Below are positions 15,687 to 57,127 of a DNA stretch of 63,140 nt, in pieces (positions within the stretch are counted from its first letter, which is position 1; each line of letters begins with the position of its first letter). The DNA lies in the IMG/VR virus record IMGVR_UViG_3300004770_000012, positions 1-63,140 of that record; one strand, 5' to 3'. This DNA comes from a virus. Both the position numbers and the translations under genes were made by a program. The notes beneath the pieces were generated by a model. That model had not been told where the DNA came from. It made no database searches and was given only the letters and a program-made list of their open reading frames with translations.

Positions 15687-17120
15687 TTATGTATGTAGTC
15701 CTCTAATAGGAATAACTAATTCTCTAAACGTTGAATCCATTGCTGTTAAACCAAGGTCATCAATGTATTTATTTGCAATTTTAATAGCTCCTAATTGATT
15801 TGGATGAAGACCATCTGATTGATATAAATTTGAAGTCATATTCAATGTACTCAAATCTACGCAATGCAATTTTAAATTATTTGCTACATTTTTTACTGCT
15901 TTAGCATAATTAGCATAAGGTTCTACTTGTGGAAATCCAGTATTAGTTGGTATAAGAGGAACAGTTAAAACAACATCAACACTTGGAATAATTTCATGTA
16001 ATTGAGAATCTGTTGATGCAGTCATCAATTCAGTTGCTAATTGTGTTAAATCAGCTTGATACTGTGCAGAAGTTTTATTTCTTGTAAGAATATCATTGAT
16101 TCCAGCTGAAATTACAACTGTTGGTTTTGCATTACCATTTGATGGGTCATCATAAAATGTTTTATACATAATACTTCTTTTTATTTCATCCGATTTACCA
16201 AGATAATCTTCTATTGCATAAGAATTTCTTCCCATTACTTGTATTTGTATATTTGAAAATTCTGAACCTACATAAGGAGAATAATTAAATGAAATTGAAT
16301 ATATTTTTAAATTTCCAATTGTAGTTTGTATTTTAATGTGATCTACAGTTACTGTAGAAGTTGATGGTATACCTGTAGGAATTGAATGATATGGCTCAAC
16401 AATACTATTTGGACTAGATGTGTTAGTGGTAGTCGAAAATGCGTATTCATATAAATTTACATTATTTGAATCATAAAAAGATATAGTCCCAGCACTAGGA
16501 AAAGTTCCAGCAGGAACAAAAGAATTGCCTTGATATCCACCAAGAACAATATAAAAATATTTTGTGTTTATACTATTTAAAAAAATGGATATATATTCAT
16601 TTTCAGGAATCTGTATCATTGGATCACGATATGAAGAATTTTTAGTTCCTTTGAAACCAGAAAATGGACCTTCGTTTATATACTGAACGCCAGATGATGC
16701 AGTAAATTTAACATTTCCATTAAATCCTCCATTAAATGGATTATCAGTTCCATCATCATACATTAATGTTCTTGTAACACCTGTTACTGACATTGGAGAC
16801 CAAAATCCAAAAGCACCATCATTTGTTCTTACTCCATCCACATGTTGTTGAATTATCTGCGACCATTGTTGAAATAATGGTAAACCATTCCCCCATGTTA
16901 TGGAATCACCTAAAAAAACTATACTTTTTGAAAAATTATCAACATATGCTGGTTTTTGATAAATTTGTTGCCAAACACCATTTACATTTACCCAACCAGA
17001 ATTCATATTTTCCCATTTTCCATTAATATTATAACTGACGGAAGTAGATTCTGAAGAATTTACTTTAGGAGCAAGTGGAATAAACTCGCCATTTTCACTT
17101 ATAAAAAAATATATTGGCAT
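15687..17120 (-). CDS. SGNH/GDSL-type esterase in the fibre operon
   Basis: A 477-residue protein with the three visible landmarks of SGNH hydrolases: block I FLGDSITWG with nucleophile Ser73, a block III-like SAGINDIL near residue 350, and block V DGLHPNQLG with Asp436 and His439. The first 60 residues (GKWENMNSGWVNVNGVWQQ) look like a small tryptophan-rich attachment segment. Between blocks I and III is a roughly 200-residue beta-rich insertion. In phage fibre operons such enzymes usually deacetylate or de-esterify surface glycans during adsorption; the substrate here is inferred, not shown. Its ATG overlaps the upstream stop codon (TAATG), so translation is probably coupled. Confidence 0.82.
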   Translation of the reverse strand: MPIYFFISENGEFIPLAPKVNSSESTSVSYNINGKWENMNSGWVNVNGVWQQIYQKPAYVDNFSKSIVFLGDSITWGNGLPLFQQWSQIIQQHVDGVRTNDGAFGFWSPMSVTGVTRTLMYDDGTDNPFNGGFNGNVKFTASSGVQYINEGPFSGFKGTKNSSYRDPMIQIPENEYISIFLNSINTKYFYIVLGGYQGNSFVPAGTFPSAGTISFYDSNNVNLYEYAFSTTTNTSSPNSIVEPYHSIPTGIPSTSTVTVDHIKIQTTIGNLKIYSISFNYSPYVGSEFSNIQIQVMGRNSYAIEDYLGKSDEIKRSIMYKTFYDDPSNGNAKPTVVISAGINDILTRNKTSAQYQADLTQLATELMTASTDSQLHEIIPSVDVVLTVPLIPTNTGFPQVEPYANYAKAVKNVANNLKLHCVDLSTLNMTSNLYQSDGLHPNQLGAIKIANKYIDDLGLTAMDSTFRELVIPIRGLHT

Positions 17121-19645
17121 TATACTGTATACCTATACCAAAAATCTCCATTATTACCACCAGATGGTAATAAAGTAGAAACAGTTATTCCTGAAGTTCC
17201 TGCAGAGCCAGTGTATCCAAGATTACTACTTCCACCACCAGTTCCAGAAGAACCGGTGTATCCAATAACACCAATAGAACCTGTATAACCAATACCTTTA
17301 GAACCTGTATAACCTATTGAGCCTGTATACCCATTTCCAGTTCCACCACCAGTTCCAGATGATCCTGTATATCCAACACCAATAGAACCAGTATATCCTA
17401 CTGATCCAGTTCCACTGCTACCAGATGATCCTGTATATCCAACTGGACCCGCAACAGTACTAGGAAGACCAATAGAACCAACATATCCTACCGATCCAGT
17501 ATATGCTTGTGAACCCGTATATCCAAGATTTCCTTGTGATCCGGTATATCCAATGTACCCCTGTGATCCAGTATATCCATATGACCCAGTATATCCATAT
17601 GATCCAGTATAACCATATGATCCAGTATATCCAATGTACCCCTGTGATCCAGTATATCCATATGACCCAGTATATCCATATGATCCAGTATAACCATATG
17701 ATCCAGTATATCCTAGAGAACCACTATATCCTCTTAGACCTCTTGGACCTTCAGCGATACCAACCCATGTTGTATCTTCGCCATAATAAATGTTTAGAAT
17801 ACCATTATTAGTATCCCACCATAATTCGCCATCAAGTCTATCAATAAGAGGTGGAGCATCCGGTCCCATATAAACAAGTGCAAGACCAGATGATCCATAA
17901 TATCCAACTGATCCTCGATAACCTGCACTTCCTTTATACCCTACAGAACCTGTATACCCTGTTTCTCCGATTCCACCAGCAGAACCAGTGAAACCAAAAC
18001 TTCCTTGTATACCAGTCGATCCAACATAACCAACATCACCCAACGAACCAGTATATCCTCTGGGTCCACCGGGATCACCCGTCGATCCTTTGTAACCAAC
18101 ACTTCCAGTATAACCACTAGAACCAATATAATTTTGAGTAAAATATTTTACTTCAATATCCGAAAGATCATATGGTGAAAAATTAATTGTTAGTTGATTG
18201 CCACTTACTGTATAATCTTTTTCTGGAACAAGAACTAACCCGTTAACCATGACAAGTATAATTTTACTATTTAATACGGTTCTTTTTAATGTGAATACAG
18301 CATTTACTCCGTTACCAGTAAATGTTTCACTATCATTTGGTCCACCAGCTGGTCCAGTTAAACCAATAATTCCTTGTGAACCAACAAATCCAGTATTTCC
18401 AAATGAACCTGTATATCCTCTGGGTCCACCGGGATCACCAACTGATCCTTTATAACCAAGCGAACCTTGATATCCTGCAGAACCAATAAATCCAACTGAT
18501 CCTTGATAACCTGCACTTCCTTTGTACCCTACAGAACCGGTATAGCCTGTTGATCCAGAAAAACCAGCAATATCAAAAAATCTTATTTCTATCTCTGAAT
18601 TGTCAGCTGGTGTATTAAGAATAGTTACTGTATTATTATTAGTAATGATATAATCTCTTGTTGGTACTTGAACAAGACCATTTATCATAACAAATATGTT
18701 TGATGGGTCTGAAACAATCATAGAAATATTAAAATCTTTTAATATTCCATTGCCCACAAATGTTTTAGTAACTCTAGGTGCGCCAATTGCTCCAATCAAT
18801 CCTTGTGATCCAGAAAATCCTGTAGAGCCAGTATTTCCAAATGAACCTGTATAACCTCTAGGTCCACCGGGATCACCAGTCGATCCTTTGTAACCAAGCG
18901 AACCTTGATATCCTGCAGAACCAATAAATCCAACTGATCCTTGATACCCAACTGAACCTTGATAACCCAATGACCCTTGATAACCAGCAACACCTTGTGA
19001 TGGGCCAAAATATCTTATTTCTAAGTCTTCATCAATTTCAGGTGGAATAGTAAATATTATTTCGTTTCCATAAATAGTATAATCTATATTTGGAACTTGC
19101 ACAAGCCCATTAAGCATAACAAGAATAGAATTTGCACCATCAGGTGCTTCTGTCAAAGAATATGTTCCAGAATCAGTTGATTGAACTTTATAATGCTCGC
19201 TATTTCTTGGTGCAGATGCGCCCACAGAACCAGCATATCCAATAATAGATGATCCAGAGTAACCTATATTTCCAACGGAACCAGTATATCCTGTTGGTCC
19301 TCCTGGTGCGCCTTTTGATCCAACAGAACCAGAATAACCAACGATTCCTCGTGAACCAATATACCCAACACTCCCTTTATAGCCAATAGAACCAAAATAT
19401 CCAACTGACCCTTGATATCCTATATCATTTATGCTATAATAACGTACTTCAATTAAAGAAGCATTTGATGGTGCTCTTGTAAAAGAAACATCATAGTAAA
19501 GGGCTGTATAATCAATATCTGGTGCTTGAATTAGACCATTGACACTTACGATAATATTGCTAGAATTAGCTTCAAGTATTCCCGTATTAAATCTAGTGTT
19601 TAGTCCATCACCTGTAAATGATATACTATATGATTCTAATGCCAT
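17120..19645 (-). CDS. Collagen-like fibre with four copies of an NGL domain
   Basis: An 841-residue protein. About 70 residues carrying a VNGLxQxPxxDYT core and ending in EVRYF/EIRFF occur four times, at about residues 1-72, 145-215, 305-380 and 455-520, separated by GYxGSx collagen-like arrays. Such domains are common as beta-rich units in phage tail fibres. Residues about 640-760 hold dense GYTGSYGYTGS repeats, encoded partly by a perfect 81-base DNA duplication. The C-terminus (STLLPSGGNNGDFWYRYTV) resembles short fibre ends that present a small cap. It is first in the leftward fibre operon and follows a late-promoter motif at 19687-19694. Confidence 0.87.
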   Translation of the reverse strand: MALESYSISFTGDGLNTRFNTGILEANSSNIIVSVNGLIQAPDIDYTALYYDVSFTRAPSNASLIEVRYYSINDIGYQGSVGYFGSIGYKGSVGYIGSRGIVGYSGSVGSKGAPGGPTGYTGSVGNIGYSGSSIIGYAGSVGASAPRNSEHYKVQSTDSGTYSLTEAPDGANSILVMLNGLVQVPNIDYTIYGNEIIFTIPPEIDEDLEIRYFGPSQGVAGYQGSLGYQGSVGYQGSVGFIGSAGYQGSLGYKGSTGDPGGPRGYTGSFGNTGSTGFSGSQGLIGAIGAPRVTKTFVGNGILKDFNISMIVSDPSNIFVMINGLVQVPTRDYIITNNNTVTILNTPADNSEIEIRFFDIAGFSGSTGYTGSVGYKGSAGYQGSVGFIGSAGYQGSLGYKGSVGDPGGPRGYTGSFGNTGFVGSQGIIGLTGPAGGPNDSETFTGNGVNAVFTLKRTVLNSKIILVMVNGLVLVPEKDYTVSGNQLTINFSPYDLSDIEVKYFTQNYIGSSGYTGSVGYKGSTGDPGGPRGYTGSLGDVGYVGSTGIQGSFGFTGSAGGIGETGYTGSVGYKGSAGYRGSVGYYGSSGLALVYMGPDAPPLIDRLDGELWWDTNNGILNIYYGEDTTWVGIAEGPRGLRGYSGSLGYTGSYGYTGSYGYTGSYGYTGSQGYIGYTGSYGYTGSYGYTGSYGYTGSQGYIGYTGSQGNLGYTGSQAYTGSVGYVGSIGLPSTVAGPVGYTGSSGSSGTGSVGYTGSIGVGYTGSSGTGGGTGNGYTGSIGYTGSKGIGYTGSIGVIGYTGSSGTGGGSSNLGYTGSAGTSGITVSTLLPSGGNNGDFWYRYTV
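17551..17712 (-). repeat. Perfect 81-base tandem duplication in the 841-aa fibre gene
   Basis: Bases 17551-17631 and 17632-17712 are identical, including synonymous positions. Each unit encodes 27 residues (GYTGSYGYTGS type with one GYIGYTGS slip). Because neighbouring hexads differ at third codon positions, the identity indicates recent duplication or gene conversion. Confidence 0.9.
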
Positions 19646-45763: not shown

Positions 45764-46316
45764 TAATTAAAGCTTCAAATTGTTGCCTAAATTCATTTAC
45801 ATATGGTTGTCTTAGCAATTTGATATTTCTTTTTGCTTCGTTTTTTTCATTTTCAACATCATATATGCTCTTTGCAACCCATCCAGCTGGATATCCAAGC
45901 ATTTGATATGTGTTTGGGGTCATCGTATAATTATATGCTGCAATTGTTTCTGGTGTATCAGATGATAACCCCTGATAATAATAGTATGCAATAGAAGAAG
46001 GTATAACAATAGAAGTTAATTTATCTGCACTAACATTATATTTGTCTTCTAGATAATTAATAAAATTGCCATAGTCCATTGGCCAAGAAGTATATGGGTC
46101 TATCATATTATTTGACATATAGATAATCCAATCTAAAGATGAATCATCATATTCTTTATATGCAATAATATCAGGTCTTTCACCTTCCATAACTAGATAA
46201 TCATAAAATTTTTCATATGAATTTCTATATGTCTGAATCAAAGCAACTCTAGACAATAAATTTATACATGACATATTATTGTATATTATTTTTGGAAAAT
46301 ATTTAAAAGAAGACAT
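45756..46316 (-). CDS. 53: Baseplate wedge subunit gp53
   Basis: A 186-residue protein, near the T4 length (196). Diagnostic gp53 features: FKYFPKIIYNN at the start, LLSRVALIQTYRNSYEKFYDY, MEGERPDIIAYKEYDDSSLDW, then IIYMSNNMIDPYTSWPM. gp53 joins wedges to each other and to gp25 and the sheath base. It overlaps the hub gene by eight bases and is next to the tube-like protein, an order close to the T4 53-5 cluster. Confidence 0.87.
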   Translation of the reverse strand: MSSFKYFPKIIYNNMSCINLLSRVALIQTYRNSYEKFYDYLVMEGERPDIIAYKEYDDSSLDWIIYMSNNMIDPYTSWPMDYGNFINYLEDKYNVSADKLTSIVIPSSIAYYYYQGLSSDTPETIAAYNYTMTPNTYQMLGYPAGWVAKSIYDVENEKNEAKRNIKLLRQPYVNEFRQQFEALINE

Positions 46317-46319
46317 ATG

Positions 46320-47096
46320 TTATGGACCTGATGTAGATGTAGATGATACAAAATCATCTCTTGTTTGAATGTTTATTTCTTGAAAAGATATATTCATTTC
46401 TACTATAGCAGATTTCCCATCTTTATAGAATGCAGGAGTTCCTCCAGCAGAACTATTTACTGTAAACCCAGTAATAAAAGAAGTTTTTACATTAGGAAGA
46501 ATATTATTATCTCCAACATTAAAACTTAATTCTGCAAGATATGGATATTCAAGAGCAAATCCGCCACCAATTATTCTTGGATGCATGAACCCTTTAATAT
46601 TAGTTATAATATTTTCTAAAGCAATTGCTTCTGCCTGTGATCTAGGAGACATTTTCCATGTAAAAGAATAACTTTTTAATTTTACACCATTAAAAATGTT
46701 TGTATGGTGAGGATTTCTTACCATACCAGTTTCAGCTTGAGCAAGTTTTCCGATAATAGAATCAGAAACTCCCGGCATAATTGCAGCTGCTTGTAAAGAA
46801 GCATCTTTAATAAAAGCAAGCGCACCTTTGCCTGCACGAATTTCGTTGGCATATGCTTCCATTTTGCTTTTTCCGGCCATAAGAACATCAGAAGGCGTAT
46901 TTCCCAAAATATCTAAAGCCACATCACCAACATCCATGTTAAATTGATCTTGAAGACTTGAAGGCAAAGGAAGACGAATAATGCCATCAAAATTTTGAGA
47001 TGCTTTGACTCCCGGTCTTGGTCTAACATATTTTTTAAACATGATCCTACAGCAATAAATAGGAACTTCTTCTGGAAAACTTAGAGATACAAACAT
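46320..47096 (-). CDS. Baseplate tail-tube-associated protein, gp48/gp54-like
   Basis: A 258-residue protein. The pattern GMVRNPHHTNIFNGVKLKSY, SFTWKMSPRSQAEAIALENI, KGFMHPRIIGGG is typical of proteins starting the tail tube on the baseplate (T4 gp48/gp54 family). The N-terminal half has FDGIIRLPLPSSLQDQF. AGAGGA lies five bases before the first ATG, supporting this start over the methionine at codon 19. First gene of the leftward baseplate operon, behind a TATAAATA motif. Whether it is the gp48 or gp54 equivalent cannot be settled by eye. Confidence 0.7.
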   Translation of the reverse strand: MFVSLSFPEEVPIYCCRIMFKKYVRPRPGVKASQNFDGIIRLPLPSSLQDQFNMDVGDVALDILGNTPSDVLMAGKSKMEAYANEIRAGKGALAFIKDASLQAAAIMPGVSDSIIGKLAQAETGMVRNPHHTNIFNGVKLKSYSFTWKMSPRSQAEAIALENIITNIKGFMHPRIIGGGFALEYPYLAELSFNVGDNNILPNVKTSFITGFTVNSSAGGTPAFYKDGKSAIVEMNISFQEINIQTRDDFVSSTSTSGP

Positions 47097-49803: not shown

Positions 49804-51937
49804 TTTAGGTAATTTAACGAAAAAAGTTGCAGGAAAAGTTGGTTCTGCAGCTATGACTGTAGGAAAAACAGCCGGGGGCGCAGTTGCTTCCGCTGGTAAA
49901 GCAGTTGGTGGCGTTGTTAGTTCTCTTGCTCAAGGTACGTTCAATACTATAAAAAGTGGTATTGTTCAATCTACAGGCATAAATGCATTACGCCCATCTA
50001 ATGTTATTGGTGGTGTATTAGATTCTGTTGGTCTTGGAGCAATGAGACCAGCATTTGGTGGAGACCCAACACAAAAAGCGGCTGCACAAGCAGCAAATCG
50101 TGTTGTAGCACAAAACAATGCTAATACTTCTTTAAAACCATTAGAAGAACTTCTTCAAAAACTTTTAACAATCAATGAAAAAATTCTTGAAAATACTAAC
50201 TCTATGTTAAGTTATGCAAAGAAACAAAGTGGACTATTAGATACTGCTAATGATCTTGTTAAAAAACAGATGCTACAAGATATTGAAAATGCAAGAGTAG
50301 CAGCTGGAAAAGGAAAAGTTGGCGTAGGCACACCAGCAAACGATAATACTCCCGGCAAAAAGCCAGCTGAAGGTGGTTTTCTCAGTGGAATTTTAGGGAG
50401 TATTATGGGTGGTGCTGGAAGTCTTTTAAAAATGCTTGGTCCAATCGGAGAATTTTTAGGTTCAATTGGAAGAATATTTTTAAAACTTGGCAGATTTACT
50501 ATGTTATTAAATCCATATGTTCTTGCAGCTGAAGTAATATTATTGTCTCTTAAAGCAGAAGATTGGGCATCTTTTTTTGACAATATTGGTAAAATATTTG
50601 GTGCTCTTGCTGAAGGAAAATTTCTTGAAGCTTTTACAAGATCAATGCTTTTACTTCCTGAATTAATACTTAGAGGACTGATGAGAATTGCAGAATATAT
50701 ACTTGAATTTTTTGGATTTGAAGACTTAGCAAAAAAATTAAGTAAATTTATTGATTCATTTGACTTATATGATATATTGGTAAATTCTTTTAAAGAAATT
50801 GTTGATGTTATAATGAATATTGGATCAATGCTTGTAGATGGTGCAAAATTTATAGGCAAAAAAATTGGCGGTGTAATATCTGGTGTATGGGATACTATAT
50901 CAAATGCATTTGGCACATTATTTAAAGATATAACGGATGCATTTGATGCTTTTTCTTCTGGTGATATAATCAAAGGAATAGTAAAGTTAGTTTATGCAAT
51001 ACCAGATGCTCTTATTCAATGGGTCGGAAGAGCATTAGCCACTGTAGTAGATTTTTTTGGTGGTGCAGAAATGGCTAAAACCATTCGTAATTTCTTAGAT
51101 AATTTTAATCTAACAGATACTATTCTTAAATTTTTTACATCTGTAAAAGAATATGTAACTGATACTTTTGCTAGTGCTACCAAAGCATTTTCTGATTGGT
51201 GGAAAGATTTTCATCCAATTGATGACATGATTGGAACATTTAGTTCAATAAAAGATTGGATAACATCTAAATTTACTGACACTACCAAAGCATTTTCACA
51301 ATGGTGGGATAGTTTTTCAATAATTGATATTGTACTTACGCCATTCAATTATTTAAAAGATACTGCAACAGCATTATTTGATAATCTTCAAAAATCAGTT
51401 GCAGATGTTCTTTCGTTTGATCTTGTCAAAAAAGTAAGTGATTCTATAAGTTCAGTAGTAAGCGGCGTTTGGGATTTCTTTAAAGCTTTGCCAAGCAAAG
51501 CTGTTGATTTAATTTCTGATTTGATTCCTGATAGTCTTAAAGGTTTTTTCAAATCTATGTTTGGTAGTTCAACCACACCAACAGCAACACCAACTACACC
51601 GCCAGTAACACAACCAAGAACAGCTCTTACTCCACAATCGACGAGTAGAGTAATTCAAGAACGTGAAGACGCTTTTAATGCTACACCAACTGCAGCTAAT
51701 GTTTCACCAGTTCCAACTGGAAGAGAGCAAGTATTCAATCAACAATCTGCACGTATGTCAGTTGATCAAGCAGCACCAACAGCTGTAATTATAAACAACA
51801 ATAATAATAGCCCAAATATTGGAAGTTCTGGGCAAAATTCACTGCCCAGAACTTCGGGTGCAGTACAAACAGCTCCACAATCATCTCATATAGACAGAGC
51901 ATTATATGGAGATACTTATGGAGCTGGTGTTCCTTAG
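49796..51937 (+). CDS. Tape measure / baseplate hub protein candidate (gp29 position)
   Basis: A 713-residue protein. Residues 1-75 are Gly/Ala/Val-rich helices (GKVGSAAMTVGKTAGGAVAS). Residues about 185-300 are strongly hydrophobic (GSIMGGAGSLLKMLGPIGEF; LNPYVLAAEVILLSLKAEDW). Amphipathic helices run to 590 with an internal near-duplicate (SATKAFSDWWKDF / DTTKAFSQWWDSF). The C-terminal 120 residues are Thr/Pro/Asn-rich and disordered-looking. Position directly after gp26 and a small chaperone is where tape measures lie. T4 gp29 is 590 residues. The gene ends four bases into the end of gp32 on the other strand. Confidence 0.6.
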   Translation: MADLGNLTKKVAGKVGSAAMTVGKTAGGAVASAGKAVGGVVSSLAQGTFNTIKSGIVQSTGINALRPSNVIGGVLDSVGLGAMRPAFGGDPTQKAAAQAANRVVAQNNANTSLKPLEELLQKLLTINEKILENTNSMLSYAKKQSGLLDTANDLVKKQMLQDIENARVAAGKGKVGVGTPANDNTPGKKPAEGGFLSGILGSIMGGAGSLLKMLGPIGEFLGSIGRIFLKLGRFTMLLNPYVLAAEVILLSLKAEDWASFFDNIGKIFGALAEGKFLEAFTRSMLLLPELILRGLMRIAEYILEFFGFEDLAKKLSKFIDSFDLYDILVNSFKEIVDVIMNIGSMLVDGAKFIGKKIGGVISGVWDTISNAFGTLFKDITDAFDAFSSGDIIKGIVKLVYAIPDALIQWVGRALATVVDFFGGAEMAKTIRNFLDNFNLTDTILKFFTSVKEYVTDTFASATKAFSDWWKDFHPIDDMIGTFSSIKDWITSKFTDTTKAFSQWWDSFSIIDIVLTPFNYLKDTATALFDNLQKSVADVLSFDLVKKVSDSISSVVSGVWDFFKALPSKAVDLISDLIPDSLKGFFKSMFGSSTTPTATPTTPPVTQPRTALTPQSTSRVIQEREDAFNATPTAANVSPVPTGREQVFNQQSARMSVDQAAPTAVIINNNNNSPNIGSSGQNSLPRTSGAVQTAPQSSHIDRALYGDTYGAGVP
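51822..51855 (-). terminator. 13-base perfect hairpin past gp32, inside the tape-measure gene
   Basis: GAAGTTCTGGGCA (51822-51834) and its exact complement (51843-51855) enclose an 8-base loop. It lies about 80 bases past the gp32 stop on the minus strand. No uninterrupted T-run follows directly, but a T-rich stretch (TATTATTATTGTTGTTT) starts about 13 bases after it on the minus strand. Probable transcript end or 3' stabiliser for gp32; it also lies within the tape-measure coding end. Confidence 0.6.
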
Positions 51938-52872
51938 TCCTTAGCAAGCTTCTTAAAGAAACTCAAGTCTTCGTCGTCTTCCTCTGCGGAATCCCAAGGA
52001 TTAGAAGCTTTTGGTGCTTCCTTCATTGCAGCCATCTTTGGCGATGGAGCAAAGTCTGTAGAATCGGATACCATAGTCTTCTTGTTATCAACAGCAAGAC
52101 CAAGAGCCTTTTCAAGACGCTTCTTCAACTCATCATAAGTCTTGAAGTTCTTTGGATCAAGAAGTTCAGTGAGTGAATACTCAGACTTCCAAATCTTCTC
52201 AAGCTCATCATCATCTCTGACAAGAGGACCAGTACGATCAAACTCTGACTTATCATAGTTTGGATATCCATCAACCTTACGAATCTTTAGCTTCAAGTTT
52301 GCACCTTCCCAAAGATCAAAAGGATTAAATGCATTTGAAGGATCATATTGCGGATGATCTGGACTACGACCCTGATCATCAAAAGCAGGATGCATAGCTT
52401 CATTGAGCTTCTCAAAAATCTTCTTACCATACTTGTAAAGGAAGACCTTGCCTTCATTCTGAGGGCGATTAGGATCAGAAACTACATAAATGTTTGAATA
52501 ATAACTCAAACGACGCTTCTGCTTACGAACGACTTCCTTGTTAGACTCAATACCAGAATTCCACAACTGAGAATTATACTCAGTGCAAGGATCAGCAGTA
52601 CCGGGACCAAAAGTAGTCAATGACTTCTCAATGTACCATCCGCCCGGTCCCTGAAATCCATGATCCCAAATACGAGTAAAAGGAACATCCTCACCAGAAG
52701 GTGCTGGCAAGAAACGAATGATAGCATAACCATTTCCAGCCTTATCAATGTCAGGCTTCCAAAAACGATTATCTTCATTGTTACTTGTGGGAGAATTAAT
52801 CTTGGCAATCTCGCTGTTGAGCTTATCAAACTGAGACTTGCGGTTGCTCTTAAGTGCTTCAAAGTTAGTCAT
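51934..52872 (-). CDS. 32: Single-stranded DNA-binding protein gp32
   Basis: 312 residues from the ATG complementary to 52870-52872. An ATG four codons earlier is less likely because its own codons supply the ribosome site (GGAG, six bases before the chosen ATG). The N-terminal LAST-type segment ALKSNRKSQFDKL, then NGYAIIRFLP, WDHGFQGPGGWYIE, YYSNIYVVSDP, NEGKVFLYKYGKKIF, WEGANLKLKIRKVDGYPNYD match T4 gp32 core blocks. Of the four T4 zinc ligands only His71 and perhaps Cys96 remain. The C-terminus keeps an acidic stretch (EEDDEDLSFF) for partner contacts. Role: coating single strands in replication and recombination. Confidence 0.92.
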   Translation of the reverse strand: MTNFEALKSNRKSQFDKLNSEIAKINSPTSNNEDNRFWKPDIDKAGNGYAIIRFLPAPSGEDVPFTRIWDHGFQGPGGWYIEKSLTTFGPGTADPCTEYNSQLWNSGIESNKEVVRKQKRRLSYYSNIYVVSDPNRPQNEGKVFLYKYGKKIFEKLNEAMHPAFDDQGRSPDHPQYDPSNAFNPFDLWEGANLKLKIRKVDGYPNYDKSEFDRTGPLVRDDDELEKIWKSEYSLTELLDPKNFKTYDELKKRLEKALGLAVDNKKTMVSDSTDFAPSPKMAAMKEAPKASNPWDSAEEDDEDLSFFKKLAKD

Positions 52873-52878
52873 AGTTAT

Positions 52879-52882
52879 CTCC
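52879..52882 (-). promoter_or_regulatory. Ribosome binding site deciding the gp32 start
   Basis: GGAG six bases before the second of two in-frame ATGs. The site overlaps the first ATG (ATGGAG), so starting there would place the ribosome site inside the coding sequence. Confidence 0.7.
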
Positions 52883-52889
52883 ATATGTA

Positions 52890-52926: not shown

Positions 52927-53499
52927 TCAAGAAAATTTATCTCTCAAGATTCCACAGTATTTATCTTTTTCTATGTTTAGAAAAAGACGAAGTTTGATAC
53001 AATTCAATTCTATTGTAGGCCAAAGAACTGGATCAAGAATCTTCTTATTCCAAGAATCAAAGAAACCAACACACTGATTAATAATAATAAATGTTTCTTT
53101 ATGTATCTTCTTGCGAATAAGAAGCTTTAGTAAATGAGGGTATTCCCCATCTTCCACCTTGAAGTTAGAATCAAAATCTTCAAGAAGCTCTTCTATATCA
53201 TTCTTAAAGATATATGTCAATGATTCTTTTCGTAGTAGAAACTTTTTATAAGTAAGATCACATTCATTTGAAAGCAAATCACCTACCCATATGTTAGCAT
53301 TTTCTGAAAGATTAGCAACAAGATAGTTAAATAAATCTTCCTTCTTTGAAAGTTTATAAAACATATATTTGTCTTTACGACTTTCAAAAGATGATTCGTT
53401 TGCTCTTACTTTACCATTGTACTTGAAATAATCATAAGATGGAAGAGTAAAATGTTGTTTAACAGCAAGATATTGTTTATATGCTTCAAAGGGTGTCAT
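52927..53499 (-). CDS. 59: DNA helicase loader gp59
   Basis: A 190-residue protein, near T4 gp59 (217). It follows the T4 order closely: AYKQYLAVKQHF (T4 LYLMIKQHM), YDYFKYNGKVRANESSFESR, RKDKYMFYKLSKKEDL, LVANLSENANIWVGDLLSNE, and YIFKNDIEELL. gp59 loads the gp41 helicase onto gp32-coated forks. It sits between gp32 and gp33-like genes as in T4. The start is adjacent to the upstream stop with a one-base overlap. Confidence 0.85.
   Translation of the reverse strand: MTPFEAYKQYLAVKQHFTLPSYDYFKYNGKVRANESSFESRKDKYMFYKLSKKEDLFNYLVANLSENANIWVGDLLSNECDLTYKKFLLRKESLTYIFKNDIEELLEDFDSNFKVEDGEYPHLLKLLIRKKIHKETFIIINQCVGFFDSWNKKILDPVLWPTIELNCIKLRLFLNIEKDKYCGILRDKFS
52958..52965 (-). promoter_or_regulatory. 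Possible late promoter GATAAATA before gp32
   Basis: GATAAATACTG on the minus strand lies 86 bases before gp32, inside the end of gp59. It has one mismatch to the T4 late consensus. T4 gp32 also has late transcription, which gives it some support. Confidence 0.3.
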
Positions 53500-53778: not shown

Positions 53779-54012
53779 TTAGATAGGAAGTCTATTTGTT
53801 TTCTTCATCATATTCATATTTTCAGCTTCATATTGAAGTCTTGCTTTCAAAATAGCATTATGCTTAATCAAAGCTGCAACTGTTTCTACTTCTATATTAT
53901 GACTTTCACAATATAAAATTACAGCATCCATATATTCACAATTTTTATTCTTCACAATCATCTCAATTTCAATAACAAAATCAGATGGAGTTTTAATATT
54001 AACAATTTTCAT
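53779..54012 (-). CDS. 33: Late transcription accessory protein gp33-like
   Basis: A 77-residue protein: FVIEIEMIVKNKNCEYMDAV, then LYCESHNIEVETVAALIKHN, ending KTNRLPI. The YMDAV-x-x-YCE-x(n)-IE core and terminal LPI resemble gp33 proteins of cyanophage-type T4 relatives, which link polymerase carrying the gp55 sigma factor to the sliding clamp. T4 gp33 is longer (112). The position beside gp59 agrees with T4. AAAGGA precedes the ATG. The presence of TATAAATA motifs in this genome fits a gp33/gp55 system. Confidence 0.65.
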   Translation of the reverse strand: MKIVNIKTPSDFVIEIEMIVKNKNCEYMDAVILYCESHNIEVETVAALIKHNAILKARLQYEAENMNMMKKTNRLPI

Positions 54013-54025
54013 AATTAATCCTTTT

Positions 54026-54061
54026 AAAAAGTGAGCCCATTCTGTTCCAAGGCGGTGCTCA
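54026..54061 (-). terminator. Hairpin and T-run ending the tmRNA coding piece
   Basis: On the minus strand TGAGC, one bulged A and CC pair with GGGCTCA, followed by CTTTTT. The stem arms are 54057-54061 and 54032-54036 plus two inner pairs. It lies 13 bases past the tag stop codon and 14 bases before gp33. Confidence 0.65.
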
Positions 54062-54328
54062 TACCCGTGAAACTTAAGCCGCTAGGCGAGTCTCAATGAG
54101 TGCATTATCGTTAGCATCTAAACGTTGCTTTTAGTCTCTTCGTACCTTTACTACAACCCGTCGAACCTATTTCCAGCCCATCAAAGATACATTGGTGACA
54201 ATATTAGAGACCTTTGCTCTTATCATCGGTACGGTCATGCGAGGACCAATGTATCCATGGTGGACTGGTCGGGTACTGCCCCCGAGTCCGAATTGTCTAT
54301 TCCTTACGCCTCAACGACTTAAGCATCA
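54026..54328 (-). ncRNA. ssrA: Permuted two-piece tmRNA, alphaproteobacterial type
   Basis: On the minus strand the acceptor piece comes first. It ends with a T-stem TCGGG/CCCGA around the unusual loop GGCAGTA, the acceptor strand CCAGTCC, and an encoded ACCA (3' end at 54258). A 78-base intervening segment follows with an 11-base perfect stem (54245-54255 with 54186-54196). The coding piece then starts at 54179 with GGGCTGG, which pairs with CCAGTCC with one G-U, followed by GGTTCGACGGG, the tmRNA signature. The tag frame (54074-54115) reads ANDNALIETRLAA then TAA. A hairpin and T-run end the gene. The 5' boundary (about 54328) is estimated. Role: rescue of stalled ribosomes and tagging for proteolysis. 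Confidence 0.95.
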
Positions 54329-54359
54329 TATTTATAACACAGCTATTATTATATGTCAA
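54329..54359 (-). promoter_or_regulatory. Sigma70-type promoter containing an exact late motif, for tmRNA
   Basis: TTGACA (54354-54359), a 17-base spacer, and TATAAA (54331-54336) make a near-consensus host promoter. The -10 extends to TATAAATA (54329-54336), the T4 late consensus. The tmRNA acceptor piece begins directly downstream. Confidence 0.75.
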
Positions 54360-54364
54360 GCAAC

Positions 54365-55060
54365 TCAAATACCATATTTGTCTTTATATTTCTTGCGAAC
54401 TTCTAGCAACTTGCCAACATAATCATCTCTTTTTTCAATAAAAATTTGTGGTTCTTCATCATCAACAGAAATCATTACTACAGTCTGAGAAATAGGTATG
54501 CCAGTTCTTTCTTCATACATGATTGCATAAGCAGCTGCTTGACAAAAATAATTAGTGATGTAACTTTTTTCTTTTGGTTTTAGTGCTGTCTTAAAATCGA
54601 TAATAGAAAGTTTGCCTTCATATTCAGCAACACAATCGACTGTTCCAGCCATCTCAAGATAGTCGGAATACAATCTTACTTCTTGAAGATGCACATTATC
54701 AATCTTTTCATCAATAACTTTCCTCAACCTAGAAAAACTTTCTAGGTCAATTATACTATATTTTTTATCGAAAACATCTTCATTATTGATATATTCTTCA
54801 CAAATTTTATGAACACGAGTTCCACGAGAAGCAGCTTTAGAAGAAATTTTGTTTGCTTCTTCAGCACCAACTCGTCGCCGCCATTCCATAATAGCATCTT
54901 TCGTCATCATCCCAACAACAGTTGTCACTGATGGATACTTGGCTCCGGTAGGAGTTTGATAAAACCTACCGGAGTCTGTGTTTATTTGTTCAACTTTTTC
55001 AATGATAATTTTATCAGTGTGTTGAAAGATTTTCTTCTTTTTTGAATTCGGTTTCCACAT
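54365..55060 (-). CDS. PD-(D/E)XK nuclease, RecB/Cas4-like exonuclease
   Basis: A 231-residue protein. YPSVTTVVGMM near residue 42 and RGTRVHKICEEY with His84 precede the nuclease core: AGTVDCVAEY (Asp142), LSIIDFKTA (Asp155, Lys157), then YFCQAAAYAIMY (Gln174, Tyr178). This is the RecB-family order H-D-DxK-QxxxY, as in many small phage exonucleases. No iron-sulfur cysteine cluster is evident. It overlaps the upstream PhoH-like gene by 47 bases and precedes the tmRNA. Likely acts in DNA recombination or host DNA turnover. Confidence 0.78.
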   Translation of the reverse strand: MWKPNSKKKKIFQHTDKIIIEKVEQINTDSGRFYQTPTGAKYPSVTTVVGMMTKDAIMEWRRRVGAEEANKISSKAASRGTRVHKICEEYINNEDVFDKKYSIIDLESFSRLRKVIDEKIDNVHLQEVRLYSDYLEMAGTVDCVAEYEGKLSIIDFKTALKPKEKSYITNYFCQAAAYAIMYEERTGIPISQTVVMISVDDEEPQIFIEKRDDYVGKLLEVRKKYKDKYGI

Positions 55061-56086: not shown

Positions 56087-57127
56087 ATGACAACCAAAAT
56101 TTTCGTATCCCAAATAGATACAACACAGCCAGATGGATCAACAGCTTCTTCCAATTCAGTAATTCTTCTTACAGATACTGGTCCTATATGGAAACCACTT
56201 TCTGCTTTAAATTCTGTTGGTTATACTGGTTCGCAAGGAATTAATGGTTATTTTGGATCAGTTGGCTATCGAGGTTCGACTGGCGAAGTTGGTGTGCCGG
56301 GAACATCTGGTTACAAAGGTTCTGTCGGATATACTGGTTCGGCTGGAGTTGGGTATCAAGGTTCTGTAGGATACACTAGTTCTATTGGTTATACAAGTTC
56401 TGTAGGATATACTGGTTCACAAGGAACTACAGGGTATTTTGGTTCATTAGGTTATACTGGTTATTTTGGTTCAGTTGGTTATCAGGGTTCTTTAGGAGTC
56501 GGTTATCAAGGTTCTGTTGGTTATCAAGGGTCAGCTGGTATAACAGGAATACTTGCACCATTTCCTTTTATCAATCTTTCTGATGTTGCAGACACAAATG
56601 GCAATCCATATACTGGCTATAATGATTTTGGTGGTTCATATGTCAGAGTAAAACCATCAAGAGACGGATTAGTTCTTGATCCAACAGTTGTATTGACTCC
56701 CAACATTACTGTAAATGTAGATTTTCATGGTAATCAACTTCAACATCCTGTGTTCAGCGGTTATTCAGAAAATGTAATAGATGATGGTCAACCGGGCGCT
56801 TCTCTATCTGCAAATCCATTGAATGGTAATGTAATTAAAGCTACTCTCAATTCACCTATTACAACTATTACAATGACAAATGCTGGATTAATTTCTGGAA
56901 GATTATTTTCAGTAACATTTTTCTTGAAACAAGATTCTACTGGTGGAAGAGTACTTGATTGGACAAATAATATCATCTATTGGTCAACAGGTGATGGTAT
57001 TAATCAAAATACTGGTCCAATCCTTTCAACACAACCATTTTATACTGATATTATAACTGTATATACATATGATGCTGGTGGTTCTTGGTATGGAATCATG
57101 GGTGCTAGAGGTTTCCCAACACCATAA
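56087..57127 (+). CDS. Collagen-like tail fibre with shared head domain (third cassette)
   Basis: A 346-residue protein. Residues 1-42 (FVSQIDTTQPDGSTASSNSV, then GPIWKPL) are a start different from the FPPNP type. Residues 43-157 are GYxGSx repeats including the Gly-to-Ser pair GYTSSIGYTSSVGY. Residues about 160-346 end in the head domain shared with the 360- and 2050-residue fibres (FLKQDSTGGR, then TDIITVYTYDAGGSWYGIMG). A collar-domain gene follows after 15 bases, repeating the fibre-collar order seen at the other end of the window on the opposite strand. Confidence 0.85.
   Translation: MTTKIFVSQIDTTQPDGSTASSNSVILLTDTGPIWKPLSALNSVGYTGSQGINGYFGSVGYRGSTGEVGVPGTSGYKGSVGYTGSAGVGYQGSVGYTSSIGYTSSVGYTGSQGTTGYFGSLGYTGYFGSVGYQGSLGVGYQGSVGYQGSAGITGILAPFPFINLSDVADTNGNPYTGYNDFGGSYVRVKPSRDGLVLDPTVVLTPNITVNVDFHGNQLQHPVFSGYSENVIDDGQPGASLSANPLNGNVIKATLNSPITTITMTNAGLISGRLFSVTFFLKQDSTGGRVLDWTNNIIYWSTGDGINQNTGPILSTQPFYTDIITVYTYDAGGSWYGIMGARGFPTP

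Follow-up and report, generated by a model that had tools for sequence, protein, structure and literature searches.

A circularly permuted tmRNA gene in a T4-type phage: conserved structure, a candidate dual promoter, and homing endonuclease genes nested in its relatives

Genomic context

The stretch of viral DNA analysed here, 63,140 nucleotides in full (IMG/VR record IMGVR_UViG_3300004770_000012; hereafter, the window), carries an intact circularly permuted, or two-piece, tmRNA gene on the minus strand, at positions 54324-54030. The neighbouring genes lie on the same strand. Directly upstream is an exonuclease gene (54365..55060; phrog_298, E 6e-74), and directly downstream a gene for a gp33-like late-transcription coactivator (53779..54012; phrog_254, E 1e-17), beyond which are found a gp59-like helicase loader (52927..53499; phrog_269, E 2e-54) and a gp32-like single-strand DNA binding protein (51934..52884; phrog_224, E 5e-109). 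PhoH, baseplate proteins and a gp2-like DNA end protector are further neighbours of T4 type, and, judging by this gene complement, the phage is a T4-type phage. An initial annotation made from the letters of the window had placed a permuted tmRNA in just such a phage, flanked by an exonuclease gene and gp33, and was right about both position and phage type.

A longer IMG/VR contig of 157,306 bp matches window positions 37335-63140 at 99.9-100% identity where compared; it belongs to the same phage and encodes the late sigma factor gp55. The tmRNA of the window is embedded in this contig and is present as an identical copy in at least five others. Judged by the gp6-like baseplate protein, the isolated phages nearest to this one (33-42% identity) include Stenotrophomonas phage DLP_6, Caulobacter phage Cr30, Sinorhizobium phages, HTVC008M, Melnitz and Mosig. 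Elsewhere in the window, two regions (56087-57127 and 17120-19645) encode tail proteins with long collagen-like glycine-rich repeats.

Anatomy of the tmRNA gene

In a search with cmscan, the minus strand matched the full length of the Rfam alpha_tmRNA model, the check proposed in the initial annotation, at 94.3 bits against a threshold of 50 (E 2e-24, span 54363-54030), and the full length of the tmRNA_permuted model at 88.1 bits against a threshold of 47 (span 54319-54074). ARAGORN likewise calls a permuted tmRNA in the window, with the tag ANDNALIETRLAA.

The piece with the T arm and the CCA end lies 5' of the coding piece, which is the permuted order. This acceptor piece, delimited by Rfam alignments and pairing, occupies 54258..54324, its 5' end being approximate and set from the promoter. 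It contains the T arm TCGGG-GGCAGTA-CCCGA (54285-54269, from the Rfam alignments), the acceptor 3' strand CCAGTCC (54268-54262), the discriminator A, and an encoded CCA (54260-54258). The intervening sequence (IVS) that follows, 54257-54180, is 78 nt long, has no open reading frame of note, and is closed by a 12-pair stem, GGATACATTGGT/ACCAATGTATCT. The coding piece (54030..54179) begins with the acceptor 5' strand GGGCTGG (54179-54173) and contains GGTTCGACGGG; the tag reading frame ANDNALIETRLAA*, which is open and has a C terminus of the degradation type, runs from 54115 to 54074 (ARAGORN), and the piece ends with a 3' hairpin and five T.

Most of this layout had been anticipated. The order of acceptor piece, hairpin and coding piece with tag holds, with each element at its expected place; the pairing of GGGCTGG with CCAGTCC across the permutation is complete (7 of 7 pairs, G3-U70 among them); the 11-base perfect stem of the spacer is there, as 11 Watson-Crick pairs to which one G-U can be added; and the predicted ends of the two pieces, 54258 and 54179, agree to the base with the CCA end and the start of the coding piece in the sequence. 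The span given in the initial annotation, 54026-54328, contains these elements, and its 5' boundary alone has to be extended, the promoter being at 54359-54329.

Conservation of RNA structure and of the tag

The acceptor and IVS stems of the window fold as a single hairpin of -36.4 kcal/mol (z -4.6, with none of 200 shuffles as good). In a 65-column composite alignment of the T arm, the acceptor strands and the ends of the IVS, built from 30 distinct phage sequences, standard pairs fill 97.4% of the cells, as compared with 77.7% in shuffled alignments and 43-62% when the partners are slid along each other. Both sides have changed in 15 of the 22 pairs, and the covariation score is 0.60 versus 0.19 in shuffles. 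Acceptor pairs 4, 5 and 6 vary in a compensatory manner, the acceptor of the window (CCAGUCC/GGGCUGG) being unusual, while the G-U at pair 3-70 is invariant in all 30 sequences, that of the window included. G3-U70 is the identity pair for alanine. In these counts the acceptor helix has an advantage, because the start of the coding piece was picked so as to pair with the acceptor 3' strand; the IVS stem, whose position was set by fixed offsets, has no such advantage, and taken alone it is paired in 94% of cells, with double changes in 9 of its 10 pairs. Both the acceptor stem and the IVS stem are kept through compensatory changes in the 30 relatives.

About 30 distinct tags were collected from loci fetched through the exonuclease (see below). 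Most follow the pattern ANDN...[LIF]AA, one group ends in KIAA, and the C-terminal codons are spelled in 25 ways; the scan demanded an AA end, so that the C-terminal regularity is partly imposed. This common pattern in distinct tags, together with the many spellings of the last codons, indicates that the peptide is under selection.

Promoter

Ahead of the gene stands a TTGACA hexamer of the -35 type (54354..54359), followed after 17 nt by TATAAATA (54329..54336), which is an exact T4 late-promoter box and at the same time matches the sigma70 -10 box in five of six positions. The two phage proteins that go with a T4 late promoter are both phage-encoded, gp33 in the window and gp55 in the longer contig.

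Conservation of this element was examined in loci fetched by the exonuclease protein, whose 53 bases ahead of the gene form 19 clusters at 80% identity. The exact octamer is present in 17 of the 19 clusters, as against 2% expected from shuffles, and in these 17 it sits 12-21 nt ahead of the first pair of the tRNA domain; TTGA[CT] is found 17 nt (in one group, 20 nt) upstream of it in nearly all clusters. A pattern scan that contained the octamer was dropped from these statistics, as the query itself includes it. In the window as a whole there are eight such boxes versus 13.9 expected from shuffles, five of which are intergenic, although intergenic DNA makes up 9% of the window; the intergenic boxes before structural genes lie some 30 nt ahead of the start codon. 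The longer contig has more sites of the classic kind.

The element fits both a sigma70 promoter and a T4 late promoter, and late as well as early expression is likely for that reason; both host sigma70 and the gp55/gp33 system can probably use this start, late use being read from the sequence, in which the octamer would also pass as a sigma70 -10 box. The published proposal was for early expression only. Buchholz et al. 2022 (PMC9004378) predicted an early promoter for the tmRNA of phage Melnitz and proposed that the gene tags host proteins for recycling. That TTGACA is conserved at a distance of 17 nt from the -10 position agrees with that idea. A promoter for sigma70 alone would, however, favour TATAAT, and yet it is the late octamer that nearly all clusters have, and the Rfam alpha consensus at the -10 place, UAUAUU, differs from it. 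In Melnitz the same TTGACA-17-TATAAATA element is found near position 46000, within the tmRNA as annotated (45984-46436). The promoter screen of Buchholz et al. 2022 (PMC9004378) excluded non-intergenic sites, and because the octamer of Melnitz falls within the ARAGORN gene call, this late box may have been hidden from it. An exclusively early gene is, on this evidence, an unlikely reading. The conserved dual-type promoter is new here, and a start that would suit both host and phage late transcription calls the early-only idea into question.

Distribution in related phages

Relatives were fetched by the exonuclease protein, i.e., independently of the presence of a tmRNA. All 41 exonuclease loci with a convincing gp33 on the contig have a permuted tmRNA in the same slot, one of them with a deletion; most exonuclease loci below about 50% identity are without tmRNA. 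The exceptional contig, L028 (at ~6610), lacks 92 nt relative to L029 (5747-5839), to which it is otherwise 99.5% identical, and the loss takes the 3' part of the IVS and the acceptor 5' strand. This is either a null allele or an assembly fault, and the gene may be dispensable. ARAGORN missed about half of the relatives found by the Rfam models and was rejected for that reason as a sole test of presence; there is a practical gap here, with many permuted phage tmRNAs escaping this program.

Two-piece tmRNAs in phages are already known, 53 of them having been counted by Buchholz et al. 2022 (PMC9004378). In Pelagibacter phage Mosig and Methylophilales phage Melnitz, where the gene is annotated, and in Pelagibacter phage HTVC008M, where it is detectable, the tmRNA occupies the same interval between exonuclease and gp33, the order in Mosig being exonuclease, small ORF, tmRNA, gp33. 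The window gene is thus not new in kind, and belongs to an already known type of phage two-piece tmRNA, with relatives in sea water. All four are permuted tmRNAs of the alpha type in T4-type phages, lying between a PD-(D/E)XK exonuclease and gp33, and the TTGACA-17-TATAAATA start is common to Melnitz and the window. The three isolates differ from the window in their tags, and Mosig and HTVC008M lack the octamer at the tmRNA start. Melnitz (52.8 bits) and Mosig have a glutamine riboswitch at the 3' domain, which is not a general feature and is absent from the window, where the RF01739 model has no match. The permuted tmRNA of HTVC008M (KC465899, 145161-145370) is unannotated in its record.

The two-piece tmRNA of alphaproteobacteria (RF01849) shares with the window gene its order of parts, a T arm GGGGGC(A/G)GTACCC, G3-U70, and a tag of the form ANDN...LAA. 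The window gene differs in its shorter mRNA-like domain, in having TATAAATA in place of the consensus -10 box, and in its phage setting.

Other arrangements exist among phages. The permuted tmRNAs of RHph_I1_18 and DLP_6 are located in tRNA clusters, and Cr30, phiM12, phiN3 and C48C1, when examined for tmRNA, gave none. The genes of DLP_6 and of contig L049 are phage-borne and permuted, as in the window, but are of betaproteobacterial type, matching the beta_tmRNA model (104 and 124 bits, respectively), and the L049 gene, unlike that of DLP_6, follows the exonuclease as the window gene does. This beta-type gene (L049, 5209-5589), whose sigma70 promoter is perfect and which lacks TATAAATA, suggests a replacement by the tmRNA of another lineage.

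Permuted tmRNAs also turned up on two contigs binned as cellular. One, PBDU01000009.1 (L150; a MAG labelled Euryarchaeota archaeon SP339), has the gene at 1376-1910 together with gp33, a gp59-like loader and gp32, and by its gene content is a misbinned T4-type phage. One or more of the permuted tmRNAs assigned to archaeal MAGs are therefore phage DNA, and contigs of this sort are likely the source of some of the reported 'archaeal' permuted tmRNAs. The other, NHBR02000136.1 (L151; a MAG labelled Muricauda sp. TMED12), has the gene at 1945-2322 on a contig of T4-type phage core genes, in a slot different from that between exonuclease and gp33; the ORFs around it resemble RegA, gp62, gp44 and gp43 by eye only.

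Origin

In 84,980 bacterial and archaeal genomes, all from outside the Alphaproteobacteria, a 19-base signature of the acceptor piece of this lineage does not occur. A 34-base string from the T arm and acceptor matches four MAG contigs, two of which are the T4-type phage contigs L150 and L151. The other two, L152 and L153, were considered as donors and rejected, as their tmRNAs are of the ordinary one-piece kind and have the string in common by convergence. The plasmid search gave one weak match, in Bosea.

The initial annotation suggested acquisition from the host. The absence of the signature from the genomes searched, together with the constant slot in all 41 relatives that reach gp33, makes a recent capture unlikely; the tmRNA appears to be a long-standing resident of this phage group. 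Were the gene a non-functional passenger lately taken from an alphaproteobacterial host, a best match to alpha_tmRNA among the old-style models would be expected, and this is what is seen; the shared slot, the compensatory changes, the phage-type promoter and the missing signature in the bacterial genomes searched all speak against it, and we hold such a passenger to be exceedingly improbable.

Function

tRNA genes are numerous in phages, but ribosome rescue is carried by few of them. Given its anatomy, covariation, conservation and promoter sequence, the window gene is very likely a functional two-piece tmRNA of a T4-type phage, one that would be transcribed from an early and late promoter, processed, charged with alanine, and used for tagging. 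Use during infection is plausible for a gene that is intact, conserved and provided with a promoter.

In the mechanism that we propose, a single precursor would be transcribed from the TTGACA-17-TATAAATA start, and the 78-nt IVS would be excised, as expected from bacterial two-piece tmRNAs, by RNase P at 54179 and by 3' maturation at the CCA (54258), leaving two RNAs held together by the acceptor stem and P2. Host alanyl-tRNA synthetase would charge the CCA end via G3-U70, host SmpB would deliver the tmRNA to ribosomes stalled on broken mRNA, and the rescued product, tagged with ANDNALIETRLAA, would be directed to proteolysis of the ClpXP type. A search for SmpB in the window and ten related records found no gene for it, and SmpB, alanyl-tRNA synthetase, RNase P and proteases would be those of the host. 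With the promoter serving host sigma70 and later the phage gp55/gp33 system, ribosome rescue could be maintained during the destruction of host nucleic acids.

A need for ribosome rescue in infection fits what is reported for T4, where host SsrA is one of four host transcripts that stay stable as the tRNAs of the host are broken down, and where the authors suggest that stable SsrA is needed for keeping ribosomes free (PMC9697503). Retention of the tmRNA in one slot across a large T4-type group suggests that rescue is worth keeping while host RNA is being destroyed.

A phage tmRNA might instead act as a decoy that titrates host SmpB or alanyl-tRNA synthetase and thereby inhibits host trans-translation, in the manner of the mycobacteriophage DS6A tmRNA, which consists of the tRNA-like part only; such a tRNA-like domain has been reported as a tmRNA inhibitor, perhaps through SmpB titration (PMC4131195). 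The tag frame of the window gene is intact, however, and in relatives the tag is varied yet constrained at both ends, a feature that a decoy could do without; we consider this role highly improbable. The maintained tag frame and structure count against decoy and passenger alike.

The intervening sequence as a probable homing site

Phages that are otherwise nearly identical may differ precisely at the IVS. In the pair L011/L044, the first piece is 100% identical, the T arm through acceptor 96%, the coding piece 90-100% and the downstream region 99%, and the IVS 44%. L020 and L024 are 100% identical in the first piece, T arm, acceptor strands and first coding bases, and 16% identical in the IVS; in L007/L008 the flanks are 98-99% identical, the T arm through acceptor 62%, and the IVS 43%. 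These comparisons show the IVS being exchanged as a cassette between close relatives.

In L017 and L021 the IVS is 489 nt long and encodes a 144-aa HNH protein that matches homing endonuclease phrog_655 (E 6e-14) and scores 21.1 bits with the Pfam HNH model, for which the cut-off is 21.4. A search with this protein gave 30 loci, in 15 of which the ORF lies between the tmRNA halves; these 15 represent at least eight distinct phages, whose proteins are 43-81% identical to one another. The loci include L160 (1160-1900), L162 (1386-2044) and L171 (1429-2081) among L160-L174. A full-length tmRNA_permuted match spans the ORF in seven of the ten loci tested (L162, L163, L164, L167, L168, L169 and L171), at 44-101 bits, L168 and one L167 match being slightly below the threshold. 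The acceptor strands, different in sequence from locus to locus, are paired in 7 of 7 positions with G3-U70 in all those measured; L163 and L167, where the T arm is altered, could not be resolved by the pairing script, and both have the model match. Several of the ORFs end at the TGA of a conserved TTTATGATGGGG or TTTGATGGGG junction, those of L167-L169 extend a few codons into the coding piece, and most are preceded, right ahead of the ribosome-binding site, by a hairpin containing TATAAATA (of four folded, two had z near -4 and two were weak). Wherever the flanks are long enough, the exonuclease, PhoH, gp33 or loader gene adjoins, which identifies the slot as that of the window tmRNA, and the recurrence of several cases in independent metagenomes argues against chimeras. 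In the isolates S-SKS1, S-B05 and S-SRM01, which have relatives of the HNH protein, the enzyme is situated among protein genes, with no tmRNA in the annotation.

According to a tmRNA database paper of 2025 (PMC11915505), the homing endonucleases reported in tmRNA genes are all in group I introns, and the inserts reported in the IVSs of permuted genes are limited to a repetitive element and a gene for tRNA-Ala. The group I introns with LAGLIDADG enzymes described there likewise place a homing endonuclease in a segment absent from the mature RNA; in our case an HNH enzyme is involved, located within a permuted gene, in its IVS, and present only in relatives of the window phage. In the open-access literature we came across no earlier account of a homing endonuclease located in the IVS of a tmRNA, and the arrangement is apparently unreported; its occurrence between intact tmRNA halves in at least eight distinct relatives is new here, as is the cassette exchange of the IVS.

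Occupied and empty alleles in related phages, together with the cassette swaps, are consistent with homing. It seems fairly likely that the IVS is a homing site, in which the HNH gene, equipped with its own late-promoter hairpin, would spread by replacing the IVS and the nearby acceptor as a cassette, that the 78-nt IVS of the window, which has no HNH gene, is an empty allele, and that the tmRNA is expressed late as well. No group I intron would be needed, since processing of the tRNA type would already remove the IVS. A permuted tmRNA would then be a ready-made harbour, where a mobile gene does no harm even without an intron of its own, and the high variability of IVS and acceptor sequences would in part be explained.

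Smaller ORFs, none with a family match, are seen in other IVSs. The IVS of L150 (260 nt) contains a 76-aa hydrophobic ORF, and that of L023, L024, L026, L036 and their relatives (180 nt) a conserved ORF of 54 aa (MIYVRDEGQKIKNGINFYPLSSNHVGF...), which may be the remnant of a larger gene.
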